A stretch of 64,000 nt of DNA from Alicyclobacillus contaminans DSM 17975 (GTDB taxonomy: Bacteria; Bacillota; Bacilli; Alicyclobacillales; Alicyclobacillaceae): NCBI RefSeq assembly GCF_000429525.1, contig NZ_AUCA01000019.1:1-64000 (forward strand), written 5' to 3'. Each line of letters starts with the position of its first letter. The stretch's first letter is position 1. Below, piece after piece: positions 51,663-59,559 of the stretch. The notes under the pieces were generated by a model. It saw only the letters and a list, made by a program, of their open reading frames with translations. It was not told the origin of the DNA and ran no database searches. Both the position numbers and the translations under genes were made by a program.

Positions 51663-52997
51663 ATGTACCTGCGCACCTCTTCCGTTGTCGTTCGTTGGTT
51701 CGTGGCCATCTTCTGCGCACTGGTCCTTGCAGCGGGGTGCGTTGGCAGTCTGCTGCTGCTGTACGGCGGCGGGTCTTGGCAATCCGCCGCGCAATTGGAG
51801 GCCTCCAATCTGGCTGCCGTGGAAGTCAGTGAGCTGGTGGGAACGCCCGACTATCAGTCTGCCGCAGAGCCGGAAGACCACTCTCTGCTTCGCACCATCT
51901 CGTCGGTGTTCAAACTTCCGCTGGCGAACCCTGCGAGCATGCTCTCCACGCAGTTACCGGTGCTGGACGACCGTGCAGATGCGCAGTCATCAGGCAGCCA
52001 GGCCAGCCTGTTCAATTCGCTCTCCACCTGGGAACAATCGAGCAACAAGCTCGCCATCGGTTGGGCTCCGTACGACACCGCCAGCCGAACCATCCACCTG
52101 ATTCAAGAAAATCCAGGCATCAGCGTGATCAGCCCAAAATGGATGAGCGTGCAAAACGCAAACGGTCAAATTGACGACCACGTTGAATCGGATGTCGTCC
52201 GCTACGCCCACCAGCACCACGTCCAAGTATGGGCGATGTGCGACAACCAGTTCAACGCGTCGCTGACGCACAGCGTGCTGTCGCAGCCAGCGAACCGTCA
52301 GCGATTGGTTCAGAATATCGTCCACGCAGCCGTCGCGGGGAAATTGGATGGCGTGAACATCGATTTCGAGAACGTTCATGCGGAGGACAGGACTGCCTTT
52401 ACCCAATTCATCCAGTCCCTGGCTTCCGGGCTCCATACCGCCCACATCACCCTGTCAGCGGACATTACGCCGGATATCGTTTTTCTCAAGGACGACGCCG
52501 CGTTTTTCCACGCCGGCCTCGCCGAATCCTGCGATTACGTGGTGCTGATGGCGTATGACGAACACTGGGGCGGCGACTCGGAGCCAGGACCCGTTGCCGA
52601 TGTCCCCTGGGTCGAATCCTCTGTGAATGATCTGTTGTCCACCGGCGTCCCTGCGGACAAATTGATTCTCGGACTTCCCTTCTACACGCGGTTCTGGTAC
52701 GTGCACCGTGACGGGAGCGTGACCAGCGAAGCTGTCGCGGCACCCAACATCCGTGATATTTTGGCGCAGCACCACGCTGAGAGCCAGTGGAACGACACCC
52801 TTGGGGTAGCCTATGCCAAATACGCGAAGCCGGACGGTTATATGGAGGTGTGGTACGAGACCGACAAGACCATGCAGCGCAAATTGCAGCTCGTCAATGA
52901 GCTTGGGCTGCCCGGCGTTGCCATTTGGTCGCTCAGCCTCTCGAGCACGGAAACGTGGAATTCCATGCTCCAAGCGTTGCGTCAAAGTGTTTCGTAA
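51663..52997 (+). CDS. Membrane-anchored glycoside hydrolase family 18 protein
   Basis: A 444-residue protein with an N-terminal signal-anchor helix (VRWFVAIFCALVLAAGCVGSLLLLY) and a linker. A GH18 TIM barrel runs from about residue 130. The catalytic motif DGVNIDFENV carries Glu 236. VVLMAYDEHWGG and GLPFYTRFW are typical of the YaaH/YkvQ-type N-acetylglucosaminidases of spores and cell walls, so peptidoglycan or spore cortex is a better guess for substrate than chitin. AAAGGAG precedes the ATG. Confidence 0.85.
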   Translation: MYLRTSSVVVRWFVAIFCALVLAAGCVGSLLLLYGGGSWQSAAQLEASNLAAVEVSELVGTPDYQSAAEPEDHSLLRTISSVFKLPLANPASMLSTQLPVLDDRADAQSSGSQASLFNSLSTWEQSSNKLAIGWAPYDTASRTIHLIQENPGISVISPKWMSVQNANGQIDDHVESDVVRYAHQHHVQVWAMCDNQFNASLTHSVLSQPANRQRLVQNIVHAAVAGKLDGVNIDFENVHAEDRTAFTQFIQSLASGLHTAHITLSADITPDIVFLKDDAAFFHAGLAESCDYVVLMAYDEHWGGDSEPGPVADVPWVESSVNDLLSTGVPADKLILGLPFYTRFWYVHRDGSVTSEAVAAPNIRDILAQHHAESQWNDTLGVAYAKYAKPDGYMEVWYETDKTMQRKLQLVNELGLPGVAIWSLSLSSTETWNSMLQALRQSVS

Positions 52998-53024
52998 AGT
53001 GGAGGTTGTAGGGAGGAGACTGCT

Positions 53025-53510
53025 GTGGACAGGTTGTTGGTCGGTTTTGCCTTGGTGACCTTGTCGGCGTACGTCGCGGCATTCTTCCACAGGCCTCAAC
53101 TGGCCGGTGCAGGACTCGCTACGACGGCGGAGCTCTTTGTCCAAGCTTTGCCGTGGTTGGTGGTCTCCACCTTCGCCGCGGGCATTCTCTCGCAAACGTT
53201 CTCTGCCGAATGGATTGCGCAGTGGCTCGGAGAGGACGCCGGACTCGCCGGCGTCTTGGTGGGGGCGCTGCTCGGCATGTTCGGCACCGGGTCGCGCTGG
53301 GCCCTGTATCCTTTGGCCGCGGGGCTGCTGGCGGCGGAGTCCAGCCCCGGTGCGGTGTTCTCCTTTGTCACCACCTGGCAGTTGGTGTCATTGCCCCGGC
53401 TTCCGGCCGAGTTGCCATTCTACGGTGCGGAGTTCACAGTGGTGCGAGCGGTGGTGTCGGTCGGCGTGGCCATTCTCGGCGGCGTGGTGATCAATCGTCT
53501 GCTGCTGTGA
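53025..53510 (+). CDS. Half-length permease-like membrane protein
   Basis: A 161-residue membrane protein with four to five helices. The pattern ALPWLVVSTFAAGILSQTF, LAGVLVGALLGMFGTGS and PLAAGLLAAESSPGAVFSFVTTWQ resembles one half of DUF318/COG0701 permeases. In those proteins two such halves form the pore, so it may act as a dimer. GGGAGGAG precedes the GTG start. It starts 27 nt after the GH18 gene and its 3' end overlaps that of ccmD by 20 nt, converging. Confidence 0.7.
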   Translation: MDRLLVGFALVTLSAYVAAFFHRPQLAGAGLATTAELFVQALPWLVVSTFAAGILSQTFSAEWIAQWLGEDAGLAGVLVGALLGMFGTGSRWALYPLAAGLLAAESSPGAVFSFVTTWQLVSLPRLPAELPFYGAEFTVVRAVVSVGVAILGGVVINRLLL

Positions 53511-53676
53511 ACGACGCGCTCTCGTCGCACTTCTGCACGGATGCCTGTTCCAGTTGCCATTCCCGAAGCGCCCTTTCCACCTGCCGCTGTCGACGCCACA
53601 GCGACATCACGTACAGGCAGGTTCCTCCCCAGACCAGCAGTGTGACGGCCCACAAATATCCAAGTTGATGCGACAT
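53491..53676 (-). CDS. ccmD: CcmD-like single-helix protein
   Basis: A 61-residue protein with one membrane helix (YLWAVTLLVWGGTCLYVMSLW) followed by a basic, charged segment (RRQRQVERALREWQLEQ). This is the CcmD topology: CcmD holds CcmC and the CcmAB exporter together and helps release holo-CcmE. It lies 22 nt after ccmC and ends the operon. A strong GGGGGGGAG precedes the ATG. Sequence conservation in CcmD is weak, so the call rests mainly on position and topology. Confidence 0.75.
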   Translation of the reverse strand: MSHQLGYLWAVTLLVWGGTCLYVMSLWRRQRQVERALREWQLEQASVQKCDESASFTAADD

Positions 53677-53698
53677 GACTCTCCCCCCCTCATTCACC

Positions 53699-54433
53699 TC
53701 AACGTCTCCCGTCCATCGGCGTGCTGGGTGCTGTCCGGTATGCCTCCCCGACAAGCGTCTCGCGTACACCGGCCTGGCCCCGCATGCGCGCCAGCGTTCT
53801 TCGGGTCCACTCCAACCGAACTCGCAGATACAGCAGCAGGACATAGACCAGAAAAAAGACAACGAAGCCAAACATCAATGTGAACGCCATGCTTCCCGGC
53901 ATATGAAAACCGGTGTCATTCACCAGATCCGGGTGAATCGACCGCCACAGTCGAACCGACAGATGAATCAGCGGCACGTCGAGGAACGCCACCACCGTGT
54001 ACACAGCCGTAACCACCGCCCGGCGTCGTCCGTCCTCCATGCTGGCGCGCAACAGCACGCAGCCGATGAACAGAAACCAGAGAATCAGTGTCGTGGTCAA
54101 CCTTGGGTCCCACGTCCACCAGGCATTCCACACCGGTTTGGCCCACAGGGCTCCGGTGACGAGCGTGAGCGCGGTATACACCAGTCCAATTTCAATGGCG
54201 GCCACGAGCACCATGTCGCAGCGCTGCCTGCGGGTCAGCAGATACCCAACGGCCGCGCCGAACGCTACACAGAAGGAGATCAACGCGATCCAGGCGCTGG
54301 CAACGTGAAAGTACATGATGCGGACCAGATCTCCCATTTGCGCCTCTGGCGGCGACCAGATGAGAGCCAAGTACAGATCGATGAGGCCAAGCAACCCGAC
54401 GAGGCACACGCAGCCTTTGCTCACCCAGTTCAT
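53699..54433 (-). CDS. ccmC: Cytochrome c maturation protein CcmC (haem handling, WWD family)
   Basis: A 244-residue, six-helix membrane protein that loads haem onto CcmE. The WWD motif is visible as WNAWWTWDPRLT, with flanking His residues in IMYFHVASAW and IHLSVRLW as haem ligands. The ATG (MNWVSKGC) follows GGAGGTC. It starts 2 nt after ccmB. Unlike ResC/CcsA of Bacilli it is short and sits with CcmA and CcmB. Confidence 0.9.
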   Translation of the reverse strand: MNWVSKGCVCLVGLLGLIDLYLALIWSPPEAQMGDLVRIMYFHVASAWIALISFCVAFGAAVGYLLTRRQRCDMVLVAAIEIGLVYTALTLVTGALWAKPVWNAWWTWDPRLTTTLILWFLFIGCVLLRASMEDGRRRAVVTAVYTVVAFLDVPLIHLSVRLWRSIHPDLVNDTGFHMPGSMAFTLMFGFVVFFLVYVLLLYLRVRLEWTRRTLARMRGQAGVRETLVGEAYRTAPSTPMDGRR

Positions 54434-54435
54434 GA

Positions 54436-55113
54436 TCAGACCTCCATCAACGTCTCGTACAACAGCCAGGGCAGTACGCTGACCATCAGCAGGTATCCAA
54501 TGAGGACCCCCGCCCACGACCAGGGCACGGGGGCACCGCTGAGTGCGCTGGCGGTCAGCCTATCCACCCCCAAAAACAGCGGCAGGGACACAGGAAACAG
54601 CAACATCGGCAACAGGACGTCGCGGAGTGTACTGCCAGCGGTCAACAAGGAAACAAACGTCCCCATTCCAGACAGCCCCAACGTTCCCAAGCCAAGGCTT
54701 GCCGCAAACCACAGCGGACGAACCGGACCTGCACGATTGAACAGGAGGAAAAACATCCCCGTCAGCACCGTGACGGCGCACAGAATAAAAATGAGCGTAC
54801 TGCACCAGCGCGCGTAGTAGATGACGGACAGATCCTGTGGGATGAAGCGGATACCCGTCGCCGCCCCGTACTCCTCGTCTCTCCGGTCCTGACGGAGAAA
54901 ACCAATCGCCGTGGTGAAAAAAATGTTGAGCCAAAGCAGCCCTGCCGTCATCGAATCGGACAGATCTCCGGCACCGTCCACAGCGATGGCGGTGATAAAC
55001 ATCATGAGCGCGCCAAACAAGAGTCCGGTTGCGAGCAAGTGTGGCCGGCGACACTCCAACCGAATGTCATTTATCAAGAGCAATCCAAAGACGCGCCATC
55101 CACTCCCAATCAC
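54436..55113 (-). CDS. ccmB: Haem exporter ABC permease subunit CcmB
   Basis: A 225-residue six-helix permease of the CcmB family. It pairs with CcmA; the complex uses ATP to release haem-loaded CcmE from CcmC. The pattern LLINDIRLECRRPHLLATGLLFGALMMF and the FRQD-like FLRQDRRDEEY is typical. The GTG start overlaps the ccmA stop by 4 nt (GTGA). Confidence 0.87.
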   Translation of the reverse strand: MIGSGWRVFGLLLINDIRLECRRPHLLATGLLFGALMMFITAIAVDGAGDLSDSMTAGLLWLNIFFTTAIGFLRQDRRDEEYGAATGIRFIPQDLSVIYYARWCSTLIFILCAVTVLTGMFFLLFNRAGPVRPLWFAASLGLGTLGLSGMGTFVSLLTAGSTLRDVLLPMLLFPVSLPLFLGVDRLTASALSGAPVPWSWAGVLIGYLLMVSVLPWLLYETLMEV

Positions 55114-55769
55114 GCCACCAACTCCAATAGTTGTCCATTCCGAAGCGTCCAGCGCACATCGACGAAGGCTGTTTGTGTCGCGCCGTGTCCGGTCATCACC
55201 AGGCTTGTCCCGGTTGCCCGAGCGCCGTCCAGCAACTGGGCCATCAATTGAATGCCACCGGTGTCCAACCCTTCGAACGGTTCATCCAGCAAGAGGATCT
55301 GCGGCTGGTGCAGCATCGCCCGCGCCAAGGACAACCGTTGCATCATCCCTTTCGAATATTCGCGGACCCTTCGATCCGCAACATGGAGCAACTCCACCTT
55401 CCGCAGCCACTCACGGGCCGTCTCTCGTCGTTTGGACAGCGACATCCCGTGAAGACCGGCGTACAGCATCAGGTTCTCCATCCCGGTGAGATCACCGTAT
55501 ACCCAGGGCGCCTGTAGAACGACCCCAAAGTGCGCCCGGTCGCGACGCGTGATGGGTCGTCCACACCAGTGAACGCCGCCGCGGGTGGGCTTGACCAGTC
55601 CCGCCATCACCTTGAGCAAGGTCGTCTTGCCGCTCCCGTTCGGCGCCTGCAACCAATACGCCCTGCCGCGTTCGACCCCTACGCTGATTCGGTGCAGCAC
55701 CGGCCTGAAATGGTATTCCTTATCGACGTTATGAAGAGAAAGGAGGTTGTCGCTCCGTGTTGCTGACAA
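55110..55769 (-). CDS. ccmA: Haem exporter ABC ATPase CcmA
   Basis: A 219-residue ABC ATPase. Walker A is QAPNGSGKTTLLK, the Q-loop lies in VVLQAPWVYG, the signature is YSKGMMQRLSLARAML and Walker B is ILLLDEPFEGLD. H-loop His is in VMTGHGATQT. The start is uncertain: TTG at 55769 has GGGGGTGGGG just upstream; an ATG at 55805 is an alternative with a poorer site. Both overlap the 3' end of the orfX gene. Confidence 0.88.
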   Translation of the reverse strand: MSATRSDNLLSLHNVDKEYHFRPVLHRISVGVERGRAYWLQAPNGSGKTTLLKVMAGLVKPTRGGVHWCGRPITRRDRAHFGVVLQAPWVYGDLTGMENLMLYAGLHGMSLSKRRETAREWLRKVELLHVADRRVREYSKGMMQRLSLARAMLHQPQILLLDEPFEGLDTGGIQLMAQLLDGARATGTSLVMTGHGATQTAFVDVRWTLRNGQLLELVA

Positions 55770-56721
55770 TTGCCCCACCCCCGCGCCAGCGGCGCCGTTT
55801 GTCATCCCTAAGCTGCTGAACCCGCTCGAGTTTCGCCAAAATCTCCGCTTTTCGTTGGCTGTACACATGCCCGGTCACATGTCCATCCCGGCGTTGGTAC
55901 TCCAATCGTTCCAACGCGCGCACCAGCGCCACCTCCGCAGACGACCTCCGCCGACTTCCGGGAAACCAGCGAACGCCAGCCACCACGAACCCCAAGATCA
56001 AGGCTGCCCACAGCAAATTTCCCGTCGCCTGCAGAAGATTCTGCCGCTCCGTCAGCGGTTTTCCAATCACGGGGAGTGTACTGGCCGCGGATGTGGTCAG
56101 TTCACCTGCCCCACCCTTCGCCGCGTCGGATGTCGTGGATGGCGCGGCCGGTATCGGCTCTATGGTCACAGGCCACACGGCGCCCGCCGGAATGCCCATT
56201 CGTGTATACACGCGCACCTCCGCTCCGTTCATTTGGGCGGTGCGCGTGGTCGTAAACAGGTCTTCGGCGGCCAGCGCGTATTGCCCAGTGGGCAGGTAGA
56301 GTTCGGCCACATCCACGGGATCGTCGACGTGGAGGTCAATCTGGGCCGTCTGCTTCACGAACGGCACCGTGTACGCAACGGAGATGGTCGCGGTTTGCTT
56401 GGCTGCCGCAGCCATGGCCAGGTCGAGCGTTCCGTCGGCGTCCGGGGCCACCGCCGCATGATTGACAGTGACCGATCCGGCGTCTTTGGGCAGGTGGAGC
56501 ACCACATCGGCCGCAGCAGCACCCGAATTGGTCACGTCCAGCACCTCAACCACCTGCAGCTGCTGATGAACGGGGACCGGCATCAACATCACCTGCTCGC
56601 GGGTCACCTGCACCGGTGCCGACGCGCCAGCCCATGCCGGCACCGGGGCTGCCATCGTGAAGCCAAGCACGGCTGCTGCGCCCAACGCGGTGCGAAACCC
56701 TGTCTTTCCTGCACGGAACAT
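55729..56721 (-). CDS. Unknown membrane-anchored protein within the ccm operon
   Basis: A 330-residue protein. It has a signal peptide (residues 1-32, ending AWAGA), an extracytoplasmic part of about 200 residues with beta-sandwich-like repeats (QVVEVLDVTNSGAAAADVVLHLP, TISVAYTVPF), then one helix (LLWAALILGFVVAGVRWF) and a cytoplasmic tail of about 75 residues. The tail motif EYQRRDGHVTGHVYSQRKAE recalls the GKL-xx-Y-xx-L-xx-EL pattern seen near CcmI/CcmH. No standard Ccm protein matches it. It lies between ccmF and ccmA, overlapping ccmA. It might stand in for CcmH or CcmI, but this is inference. Confidence 0.7.
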   Translation of the reverse strand: MFRAGKTGFRTALGAAAVLGFTMAAPVPAWAGASAPVQVTREQVMLMPVPVHQQLQVVEVLDVTNSGAAAADVVLHLPKDAGSVTVNHAAVAPDADGTLDLAMAAAAKQTATISVAYTVPFVKQTAQIDLHVDDPVDVAELYLPTGQYALAAEDLFTTTRTAQMNGAEVRVYTRMGIPAGAVWPVTIEPIPAAPSTTSDAAKGGAGELTTSAASTLPVIGKPLTERQNLLQATGNLLWAALILGFVVAGVRWFPGSRRRSSAEVALVRALERLEYQRRDGHVTGHVYSQRKAEILAKLERVQQLRDDKRRRWRGGGAIVSNTERQPPFSS

Positions 56722-56732
56722 GGCGTCCCCTC

Positions 56733-58943
56733 CTATTCCGATCCGTATTCCAACAAACCCAGCAAACGATCCGCTTCCACCGGCCCGAACCAGCGGCTCA
56801 ATTCCCGAGCCATGCGTTCGCGCACCTCGACTTGCACGGCTTCCGCATCCACCAACTGGTACCTAAGCTCGCTCTGAAGCGCCTGGTAAGCTGCATTGCC
56901 GAGCTTGCCCGCTTGATGGTCGCTTCGCGCATCCTCCTGTTGCTTGCGAATGCGGAGTACGGGATGCCACGCCGGCAGTTCCGCAGCGCGATGGCGCCGT
57001 TCGGGCCAGAGCGAAACCAGCGTGCCGGCCATGAACAAATATCCCCCCATCCAGATGAACTGCACCAATGGATTCACATGAATATCGAAGACCGCTTCGT
57101 CTCCGTTCAACGTCCCCAGCATGACGACGTACAAATCGGCGAACGGGCGGGAATACAATGCCACCTCCGTGGTGGGGGATTGACCGTTGGCGTAAAACAC
57201 AGCCGCCGGCTGAATCAGCCCAAGCGTCTTGCCCCCCTGCTCCACCACCAGGTTGGCAGACATGCGGCGGTCATCTCCGACGTTGTCCACGGTCATGCCG
57301 ATGAAGCGAAGGCTGAACCCGGCCACGCGGACGGGCGGATCGCCCGCGGCCAATTGTTTCTGTTCACTGACGTGAAACGCACCAGACGCAGCGATGCCCA
57401 TGGCCATGAGCGCAACCGCCAGGTGAACCAGGTATCCCCCCAGCCGGCGGCGCTCCGTGCGCATCCACCGCAGTGCACCTCCGGTTGTGACCCGCGCGGA
57501 TGCACCTTTCACGAGCCGCCCAATCTGCGCGTACTCCAGAAGCACCGACGCAACCACGAAGACGGCGGCAACCAGTGCCGAGGTCCCAAGCACCGGCAGA
57601 CGGCCGGCGGGCATGTACAGTACCAACGCCAGCGCGAGCCCAATCACCACTGCCGCGGCCAACGGATAGCCAACGGCCCGCCGCGCAAGCCGCCAGGTTG
57701 TGTGTCGCCAGGGAAGGAGTGGTCCCATTCCCATTAGAATAAGTACGCAAACGGCCAGGGGTAAAATGACCCCATTGTAGTACCCGTTGTCCACGACCTT
57801 CTCTGCACCGTCAAGCCACCCCGTCAGCAGAGGAAATATCGTTCCGAGCAGCACCCCGGCCGTACAGCCAACCAAGAGCACATTGTTGAATACGAATGCG
57901 CTTTCTCTCGAAACGACGGCCGTCATGGGCGGGCCTCCGCGAAGCACCCGCCAGCGCCAGATGAGAATGGCGCAGGACGCAGCGCCCACCGCCATCAGCA
58001 AGGCGAGAAAATACGCGCCGAGCGCGCTGTTTGTAAACGCATGGATGCTCCAGATGACGCCGCTTCGCGTCAGGTACGTCCCCAACACGGTGAGCCAAAA
58101 CGTCAGAATCACGAGCACGTGGTTCCACCGCGTCAACATGTGTCTTCGTTCCTGCACAATGGCGGAATGCAGGAACGCGGTGGCGGTCAACCACGGCAGG
58201 AGCGCCGCGTTCTCCACTGGATCCCACGCCCAGTAGCCGCCCCACCCCAACTCCTCGTAAGACCAGTGCGCACCGTAGAGGATTCCGATGCTCAGGAACA
58301 GCCAAGAGGCCAGTGTCCAACGGCGCGTGACCACAAGCCACGTCGCATCGGTTTTTCCGAGAATGAGGCTGCTTATGGAATAGGCGAATGGAATGGAAAA
58401 TCCGATAAAGCCAAGATACAGGTTGACCGGATGAATGGTCATTCCGGGGTTCTGGAGCAACGGGTTCAACCCGCTCATCGGTATGGGTTCTGCGGACCGC
58501 GCGAAAGGAGCCACCGCAACGTTTAGAATCACGGCATAAAACAACGTGAGGGCACTGAGGATCCAGGCCACCCACGGCAGCATCCGCTCGCTGTCGTCGT
58601 GCCGGCTCCAGCTGACCATCGCGCCGTAGAGCGTCAGAATCAGCACCCAGAACAGCAGTGATCCGGCATTGCCTCCCCACAGCGCGGCGACTCGGTAAAT
58701 CCACGCTAGACCAGGCCCCGTGTACTCCGCCACGTAAAGGTAGTGATTGTCTTCCAACAACAGCAATTTCAGAAGGCAACCCGCAGCCGTCGCCGCAACG
58801 ACAAACGCGCCCGCCATCAGCCACCGCCCCGCCGTCCGCCAGGCGGCCGAACGCGTGCGGATGGCTTGGGTTTGAACCACCAAACTGGCGCAGACAGTGA
58901 CCAGGAGCAGTCGAATTGCGGCTTGTCCCAACGTGCCTGCCAT
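56733..58943 (-). CDS. ccmF: Cytochrome c haem lyase subunit CcmF, with extended C-terminus
   Basis: A 736-residue polytopic haem lyase. The WWD motif is WGGYWAWDPVENAALLPW, with His-bearing segments MTIHPVNLYLGF and LHSAIVQERRH. It receives haem from CcmE and attaches it to CxxCH cysteines. Family members usually end near 650 residues, but this one has an additional cytoplasmic tail of about 80 residues containing SDHQAGKLGNAAYQALQSEL. That segment resembles the N-terminal part of CcmI. Sits 60 nt after ccmE. System I proteins are rare in Bacilli. Confidence 0.9.
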   Translation of the reverse strand: MAGTLGQAAIRLLLVTVCASLVVQTQAIRTRSAAWRTAGRWLMAGAFVVAATAAGCLLKLLLLEDNHYLYVAEYTGPGLAWIYRVAALWGGNAGSLLFWVLILTLYGAMVSWSRHDDSERMLPWVAWILSALTLFYAVILNVAVAPFARSAEPIPMSGLNPLLQNPGMTIHPVNLYLGFIGFSIPFAYSISSLILGKTDATWLVVTRRWTLASWLFLSIGILYGAHWSYEELGWGGYWAWDPVENAALLPWLTATAFLHSAIVQERRHMLTRWNHVLVILTFWLTVLGTYLTRSGVIWSIHAFTNSALGAYFLALLMAVGAASCAILIWRWRVLRGGPPMTAVVSRESAFVFNNVLLVGCTAGVLLGTIFPLLTGWLDGAEKVVDNGYYNGVILPLAVCVLILMGMGPLLPWRHTTWRLARRAVGYPLAAAVVIGLALALVLYMPAGRLPVLGTSALVAAVFVVASVLLEYAQIGRLVKGASARVTTGGALRWMRTERRRLGGYLVHLAVALMAMGIAASGAFHVSEQKQLAAGDPPVRVAGFSLRFIGMTVDNVGDDRRMSANLVVEQGGKTLGLIQPAAVFYANGQSPTTEVALYSRPFADLYVVMLGTLNGDEAVFDIHVNPLVQFIWMGGYLFMAGTLVSLWPERRHRAAELPAWHPVLRIRKQQEDARSDHQAGKLGNAAYQALQSELRYQLVDAEAVQVEVRERMARELSRWFGPVEADRLLGLLEYGSE

Positions 58944-59003: not shown

Positions 59004-59414
59004 TTAGCCGTTTGTTCCCGCCGCCGTATACTTGGATGGACACTTGATGAGCAGTTTATCCGCGGTGAACTGACCTGTGGACGTCAATTTTCCGAACGCA
59101 ATCACCGGCCAGTCGTTCGTGAAGCTGTCCGGTTTGTCCCCGTAGTAAGAGACGGCCAATCTCGATTTCCCAGAATCATCTGTGATTTGAAAGGTCAAGC
59201 GGCGAATCCCCGGTTGCCAGCGCACGGTGTTGCCAAGAATGTTCCCGCTGACGGCCGTCTCCTGCCCCAGCGCCGCAGTCCCCCGCGCGTACAATTCCGG
59301 AACGGTGATGTAATAGGTGGATGCCCGCGTGATGGCCGTCTCAATCAGAACGCCTATCACCACCGCCACCAAGATCAACGCCGCAATCAGTTTGCCTCTG
59401 GCCCGAATGACCAA
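59004..59414 (-). CDS. ccmE: Haem chaperone CcmE, CxxxY variant
   Basis: A 136-residue haem chaperone. One N-terminal membrane anchor (LIAALILVAVVIGVLI) is followed by an OB-fold with ETAVSGNILGNTVRW and RLTFQITDDSGKSRLAVSYYG. The haem-binding motif near the end is CPSKY (Cys 125, Tyr 129), not the usual HxxxY. This variant occurs with ccm systems lacking CcmG and CcmH in archaea and Desulfovibrio. The TTG start follows AAGGAG at about 10 nt; the frame is open 10 codons further. First gene of the cassette. Confidence 0.92.
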   Translation of the reverse strand: MVIRARGKLIAALILVAVVIGVLIETAITRASTYYITVPELYARGTAALGQETAVSGNILGNTVRWQPGIRRLTFQITDDSGKSRLAVSYYGDKPDSFTNDWPVIAFGKLTSTGQFTADKLLIKCPSKYTAAGTNG

Positions 59415-59559
59415 CGGACATTCGCTCCTTCCCTGGCATGCCACGTTTCCATCCGCTCACGATGGTCGACAAGCACTTGACGGCGAACCCCTCCACTGAC
59501 TCTCTGTTCAGTATACTATAGCTCTCAGCATTCAAACACGCCCGCCTGCCACCTCGCCC

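Follow-up and report, generated by a model that had tools for sequence, protein, structure and literature searches.

orfX, a gene conserved in the System I cytochrome c maturation operons of many Bacillota, and its genomic tie to the heme lyase CcmF

The open reading frame orfX, located inside the cytochrome c maturation (ccm) operon of Alicyclobacillus contaminans DSM 17975, encodes a component of System I operons that is conserved in a large part of Bacillota and is undescribed within the literature that we searched. The tie of orfX to CcmF is well supported by genomics and the protein most likely belongs to the CcmF complex as one of its subunits, while presentation of the apocytochrome by its beta domain is our best guess for the work done there. 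Taken as a whole, we lean towards an accessory subunit that is anchored in the membrane as part of the CcmF heme-ligation complex and whose external beta-saddle probably positions the apocytochrome. The window is the whole stretch of DNA analysed, i.e. 64,000 nucleotides of contig NZ_AUCA01000019.1, and its features are collected in Table 1.

Table 1. Features of the ccm operon and predicted parts of the orfX protein, in window coordinates
Feature	Position	Strand	Basis
orfX, predicted membrane protein, 330 aa	55729..56721	-	ORF; kept between ccmF and ccmA; no curated family
orfX residues 7-24, signal-type helix	56650..56703	-	model
orfX residues 35-192, extracytoplasmic beta-saddle	56146..56619	-	model (strands 37-189); Foldseek and VIA-align matches
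orfX residues 227-256, membrane helix	55954..56043	-	model, hydropathy
orfX residues 261-314, helical hairpin on the cytoplasmic side, like the CcmI loop in some family members	55780..55941	-	model
ccmF, heme lyase	56733..58943	-	PF16327 1.1e-51, PF01578 7.7e-36
CcmF C-terminal extension, CcmI cytoplasmic loop-like	56736..56996	-	TIGR03142 E 0.0035, 17.6 bits, below cut-off 29.3
ccmE, heme motif CPSKY (CxxxY type)	59004..59444	-	PF03100 1.1e-20; motif
ccmA, longest ORF, real start probably internal	55110..55868	-	PF00005 6e-30; TIGR01189 7.5e-33, below its cut-off
ccmB	54436..55113	-	PF03379 1.4e-17
ccmC, longest ORF	53699..54517	-	PF01578 1e-29; TIGR01191 1e-41, under cut-off
small ccmD-like membrane protein, longest ORF	53491..53871	-	TIGR04391 E 0.13 only; similar frame 3' of ccmC in most related loci

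Along the minus strand the genes are arranged as ccmE, ccmF, orfX, ccmA, ccmB, ccmC and the small ccmD-like ORF, and the Pfam models CcmE, CcmF_C, CcmB, ABC_tran and Cytochrom_C_asm are all matched above their cut-offs within this operon. The ATG of orfX lies 11 bp beyond the ccmF stop and is preceded by GGAGGGG; the frame runs for 330 aa plus a stop and overlaps the longest ccmA ORF with its 3' end. An undescribed membrane protein between ccmF and ccmA had been proposed in the initial annotation, and the ORF proved to be real and conserved in position. A chance ORF was ruled out by the conservation of frame and position in the relatives with ccmF and by the codon-position pattern: compared with the same-genus orthologue over 296 codons, 140, 93 and 182 differences fall on the first, second and third positions, respectively. 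On the plus strand, a GH18 protein and a short ArsP-type permease are encoded at window positions 51663-53510; such genes are found near the ccm locus in 10/25 (GH18) and 5/25 (permease) loci.

The window protein as a whole has no match above cut-off either in Pfam (the best being GvpG, E 0.098, residues 265-299) or in NCBIfam (best E 0.7), and to this extent the earlier statement that no standard Ccm component matches is borne out. It does not extend to the family, part of which matches the CcmI model TIGR03142 (10 of the 23 aligned members at E <= 0.1, best 1.1e-6); in the window orfX this model found nothing, whether the whole protein or its tail was searched. Throughout the 23 aligned members and 15 distant homologues the matches were weak or partial and to short models only: GvpG, SHOCT, TIGR03142 and scattered others. 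We rejected an identity with the gas vesicle protein GvpG, a short model that stays below cut-off in the window protein and is matched by 10/23 members at E <= 0.1 (best 1.6e-5), and with SHOCT, also a short model, matched by four of the 23 at E <= 0.1 (best 0.0097).

The distribution of orfX follows that of CcmF closely among the relatives, sampled as 61 genomes (the window genome and 60 others). CcmF_C is present in 26 of them and orfX was matched at E <= 0.01 in 25. Two of these 25 matches (E 0.005 and 0.009) come from genomes without CcmF, where only an ABC-type match was found, and were set aside as chance; three CcmF genomes were missed at first, one with a full orfX (G051) and two with partial copies at contig ends (G044 and G050). 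Counted in this way, orfX is found in 26/26 of the sampled genomes with CcmF, and none of the remaining 35 has a reliable copy; its absence from related cassettes, set beforehand as a test of the proposal, is not what is seen. Of 24 loci (the window and L021-L043), 23 have the gene placed between ccmF and ccmA. The exception is L025, one of two ccmF loci in genome G003, with the order ccmH-ccmF-orfX-redoxin-diheme cytochrome c (L025:4955-10498), in which the cytochrome carries a SoxA/TsdA-type domain. Neither ccmA, B, C nor E was found in the 16 kb of this locus, and orfX therefore goes with the ligase half there.

In a broader sample of 398 genomes of the phylum there were matches to profile A1 in 23 and to profile A3 in 30, some over part of the profile only. 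A strong CcmF (CcmF_C of at least 150 bits) was counted by hand in 50 of these genomes, and 33 of the 50 carry an orfX-type ORF, full or short. In the other 17 a clear orfX is missing from the loci examined (G367 being covered at one of its three ccmF loci, and G426 having a weak candidate, E 8e-4), which indicates that orfX is not generally needed. A common order in the phylum is ccmE, ccmF, ccmH, a short CcmI without TPR, orfX, ccmA, ccmB, ccmC. In two genomes of family f104 (G248 and G430) orfX is found between ccmE and ccmA and away from ccmF and ccmH, an arrangement that speaks against an exclusive tie between orfX and CcmF. Named carriers in the genome collection include Bacillus sp. FJAT-27251 and Mesobacillus campisalis; two histidine-bearing patterns of alignment A4, from which histidine-free members escape, retrieved 55 stretches at 6 loci there, all with Bacillota-type names. 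A protein search of the plasmid collection with the L094 homologue gave no match; this search and the two patterns are what our analysis covered beyond the phylum. Several Bacillota also encode, upstream of ccmE or ccmF, a second protein with the same layout (signal, beta-type part, membrane helix and short helical tail), at L089:2930-3982, L086:2499-3470, L127:4060-4995 and L129:8559-9506 (orfX profile E 3e-11 to 3e-5), with a further candidate, by layout only, at L098:2580-3620.

Another component of the tie to CcmF is the in-frame fusion of orfX to the CcmF C-terminus in two lineages; none of the examined loci showed a fusion to CcmA, B, C or E. In G012 (L036), a single genome that is the sole member of its genus in the sample, ccmF runs into orfX in a single open frame that measures 944 aa between stops and 932 aa when counted from the first start, and the other two frames are without a stop in the 210 bases around the joint. 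In G388 (L114), CcmF, a CcmI-like loop and orfX share one frame; at the joint a second frame contains a TGA that overlaps an ATG, which by itself made an assembly error possible. We have kept this fusion because G455 (L143), which belongs to a different genus and is 61% identical to L114, has the same open fusion, the sole TGA in its match being located at the very end, as the stop of the fused gene. Two separate fusions, one in the window's family (G012) and another in f135 (G388 and G455), would be the simplest reading. Taken together with the co-occurrence, the fusions make the earlier suggestion that orfX works with CcmF the most likely one. Among other open frames we noted CcmF with CcmA (920 aa, L103:6082-8841) and CcmF with CcmH (955 aa, L113:6333-9197). 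The distances of orfX and ccmF correlate over 22 loci (r 0.91, with all operon pairs at 0.87-0.94), as would hold for any set of genes inherited vertically in one operon; orfX diverges faster (mean distance 0.69 versus 0.44-0.57 for the other operon genes).

A way to approach the role of the protein is through its predicted architecture. AlphaFold2 models of orfX and of its L094 homologue, built on a thin alignment of 7 sequences, have a mean pLDDT of 66.6 and 73.0, respectively, the blocks of the orfX beta part ranging from 64 to 85. Both models comprise a signal-type helix, a beta domain, a membrane helix and a helical hairpin, in agreement with the layout first read from the sequence, i.e. 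about 200 extracytoplasmic beta-type residues followed by one helix and a cytoplasmic tail. Hydropathy in 19-residue windows exceeds 1.5 only at starts 229-237, the membrane helix being clear and the signal helix unmarked. The top Foldseek ranks for both models were ribophorin I/Ost1 chains and M1 aminopeptidases. With VIA-align, orfX gave Z 13.2 against 6ezn_A (rmsd 3.5, 163 residues, 16% identity), the L094 homologue Z 11.8 against 7oci_A (rmsd 3.5, 157 residues), and domain I of LTA4 hydrolase or M1 aminopeptidase Z values of about 10-11, LTA4 hydrolase being near 11. The rmsd exceeds 15 once the alignment takes in the membrane helix and tail, and a good comparison is therefore limited to the beta domain. 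In a profile search of PDB sequences up to E 1 no relevant match appeared, none being better than E 0.41. The likeness to Ost1 in the models is one of fold and layout, and a shared fold does not prove function. An M1 peptidase was discarded as an identity for orfX, since the likeness concerns the fold of domain I only; HExxH is absent from the sequence.

The architecture is not uniform throughout the family. The beta domain is missing from the homologues at L121, L124, L127, L128 and L134, and the tail from those at L035, L037 and L038, so neither part is essential everywhere. Three short homologues consist of the juxtamembrane part, the membrane helix and the tail (L121:8410-8757, L134:6147-6629 and L124:5310-5828).

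The tail brings CcmI into the picture. Stretch 226-298 of profile A1 matches short CcmI proteins from other loci, and an HMM built from 8 such proteins matched the orfX tails of 4/23 members of A1 and 8/15 of A3, and the C-termini of 17/26 CcmFs of the window clade versus 1/32 at other loci; shuffled tails gave none (0/760 and 0/540). The loci of the window clade with a shorter CcmF (L039, L043 and L091) have a separate short CcmI. Judging from the CcmI-like tails on the CcmFs of the window clade, the CcmI loop seems to have been transferred onto CcmF in this lineage. Besides that of the window, the CcmF at L090:4833-7007 carries a C-terminal extension resembling the CcmI loop.

The proposal that orfX acts in place of CcmH is not supported, in that form, by the comparison of loci. 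CcmH adjoins orfX in 18 of 24 loci, and many Bacillota have both genes in the order ccmF, ccmH, short ccmI, orfX. orfX contains no cysteine and hence lacks the conserved CcmH pair, it has no PF03918 (CcmH) match up to E 1, and none is listed for the 23 aligned members up to E 0.1. PF03918 was found in 21 of the 61 genomes. CcmH is devoid of the motif cysteines in 22/22 cases, i.e. the 18 (L021-L034 and L040-L043) plus L090-L093, with the profile match kept; the motif region reads approximately LRAPGDQNT there and LMCTDGC...C in many distant homologues. The thiol role of these cysteine-less proteins is probably gone. A genome of another family (G059) has CcmH on a separate contig with two cysteines kept, so the loss is not class-wide. 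With PF03918 and a profile of three family CcmH proteins, CcmH was not found in the window genome (G000; 111 contigs, 99.99% complete by the tool's figure) or in G004, G012, G019 and G025. The lost cysteines at 18 loci and the undetected CcmH of the window genome therefore suggest that orfX outlasts CcmH, which is different from a gene-by-gene substitution.

As for the rest of the pathway, a DsbD/CcdA-type protein was found in 7/7 genomes checked, and the reductant path may therefore remain. System II, searched through ResB, gave no match in the window genome. A likely client is a fusion of a cytochrome b C-terminal part and a cytochrome c with a CANCH motif (G000:C14).

Fifteen phylum homologues of orfX carry H41 and a FHxxGHIR...PHLF pattern before the membrane helix, with H41, H208, H212 and H227 (L070 numbering) invariant in 15/15. 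In the window's group (23 aligned members) not one of the four is conserved. The pattern is found in 0/21 orfX proteins (two partial) that accompany a CcmH without motif cysteines. It is present at L085 and L122, where CcmH was not found; L106 has a three-cysteine CcmH and no orfX, and a CxxC-type CcmH lies beside a histidine-free orfX at L087, L088 and L125. A link between the orfX histidines and the CcmH cysteines is suggestive only, and the shared ancestry of one clade could explain it.

Starting from the conservation, the co-occurrence with CcmF, the gene fusions, the architecture and the predicted fold, we infer that orfX would also contact a separately encoded CcmF. Its single helix would be located in the membrane next to CcmF, with the beta-saddle outside, beside CcmF, and the cytoplasmic hairpin may dock at the site of the CcmI-type loop that appears fused to CcmF in this lineage. 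The most likely work of the beta-saddle would be to bind or position the unfolded apocytochrome at the active site of CcmF; in the window genome this apocytochrome would probably be the C-terminal heme domain of a cytochrome bc subunit. By analogy, the TPR domain of proteobacterial CcmI is thought to present likewise, and Ost1/ribophorin I sits beside the catalytic subunit of oligosaccharyltransferase. A bolder version of this arrangement, which we find doubtful, takes orfX as a ribophorin-like subunit, new to cytochrome c maturation, in the heme-ligation complex of Bacillota, whose ancestral histidines next to the membrane may have formed, with the three-cysteine cluster of CcmH, one common site for heme, a metal or the thiols of the apocytochrome; the window lineage would then have lost both clusters, moved the CcmI loop to CcmF and gone on maturing cytochrome c in the absence of the CcmH cysteine motif, with orfX kept as the remaining presenter.

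Several observations count against a CcmF subunit: the placement of orfX in G248 and G430, which favours the heme-delivery half, the 17 genomes with strong CcmF in which it was not clearly found, the homologues without beta domain or tail, the tail of the window orfX, which lacks a CcmI match, and the small share of A1 tails (only 4/23) matching the short-CcmI profile. Some of them fit an orfX that serves in assembly or as a scaffold, linking the heme-delivery complex (CcmABCD/CcmE) with CcmF and making no contact with the apocytochrome. The position of the gene between the two halves of the operon agrees with this alternative, as do G248 and G430, in which orfX accompanies ccmE and ccmABC away from ccmF, and the short homologues, reduced to membrane and tail parts as expected if the tail were the essential contact. 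We nevertheless hold it to be unlikely, given that at L025 orfX accompanies ccmH and ccmF in a cassette in which no ccmABCE was found, and that the fusions seen in the examined loci join orfX to CcmF and to none of CcmA, B, C or E.

The invariant histidines would be accounted for if orfX handled heme or a metal, ligating it on its way to or from CcmF, with the window lineage keeping a structural remnant. This is improbable in our opinion, because the gene has been kept in the window's 23-member group, in which those residues are not conserved. A role as chaperone for one co-inherited cytochrome, instead of a general Ccm subunit, would suit the small cassette at L025 with its one diheme cytochrome c and the one Cytochrome_CBB3 match in the window genome (the sole cytochrome c model searched). 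We give it very little credit, as orfX is retained in every relative genome with CcmF and is fused to CcmF in some lineages. An accessory subunit of CcmF is the reading that we prefer. The natural fusion offers a direct handle on it, since a single-chain CcmF-orfX is open to expression and structure solution.

The closest parallel among known maturation proteins is the N-terminal membrane part of CcmI (CycH, TIGR03142), in which a membrane helix likewise leads into a helical loop in the cytoplasm and which partners CcmF and CcmH. The external parts differ, CcmI having a TPR domain outside (as described in the excerpt of PMC3884852) and orfX a beta-type domain in the model, a beta-saddle N-terminal of the helix. 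Moreover, many loci hold a separate short CcmI next to orfX. Outside cytochrome maturation, Ost1/ribophorin I shares with the predicted orfX an external beta-saddle and one membrane helix beside a polytopic enzyme, and human ribophorin I has cytosolic helices. The context of orfX is ccm in the examined loci, which sets it apart from oligosaccharyltransferase. Ost1 acts in eukaryotic N-glycosylation and, according to the excerpt of PMC7226087, has one membrane helix and, on the lumenal side, two beta domains that resemble each other, and binds only glycosylated peptides; the same excerpt calls the exact roles of the non-catalytic subunits unclear and the Ost1 fold not chaperone-like. M1 aminopeptidase domain I and LTA4 hydrolase have the beta-saddle fold in common with the model, but orfX is without the catalytic domain.

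The window operon resembles System I* in its CcmE of the CxxxY type and in the undetected CcmH of the window genome, and differs in that most related loci do have CcmH, devoid of motif cysteines. In the excerpt of PMC3601427, most variant CcmEs are of the CPSKY type, mention is made of firmicutes, and CcmH is present in about one third of the bacteria with CPSKY-type CcmE, its absence being no fixed trait of the variant. Archaeal cytochrome c maturation proceeds without CcmD, H and I in the corresponding part of PMC9084895, and PMC6085454, as far as its excerpt goes, mentions two maturation genes without detail. A gene like orfX is absent from the excerpted System I* accounts (PMC3601427 and PMC9084895), and none is named in the titles or abstract openings retrieved by our searches of the open-access literature. 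Surveys of Bacillota that count CcmA-I alone would overlook a conserved component. Bringing the apocytochrome to CcmF and joining the heme is described in the excerpt of PMC3884852 as a poorly understood step of System I. The known helpers at this step, the thiols of CcmH and the TPR domain of CcmI, are missing or altered in the window lineage, in which orfX stays when CcmH goes; orfX extends a known system, System I.
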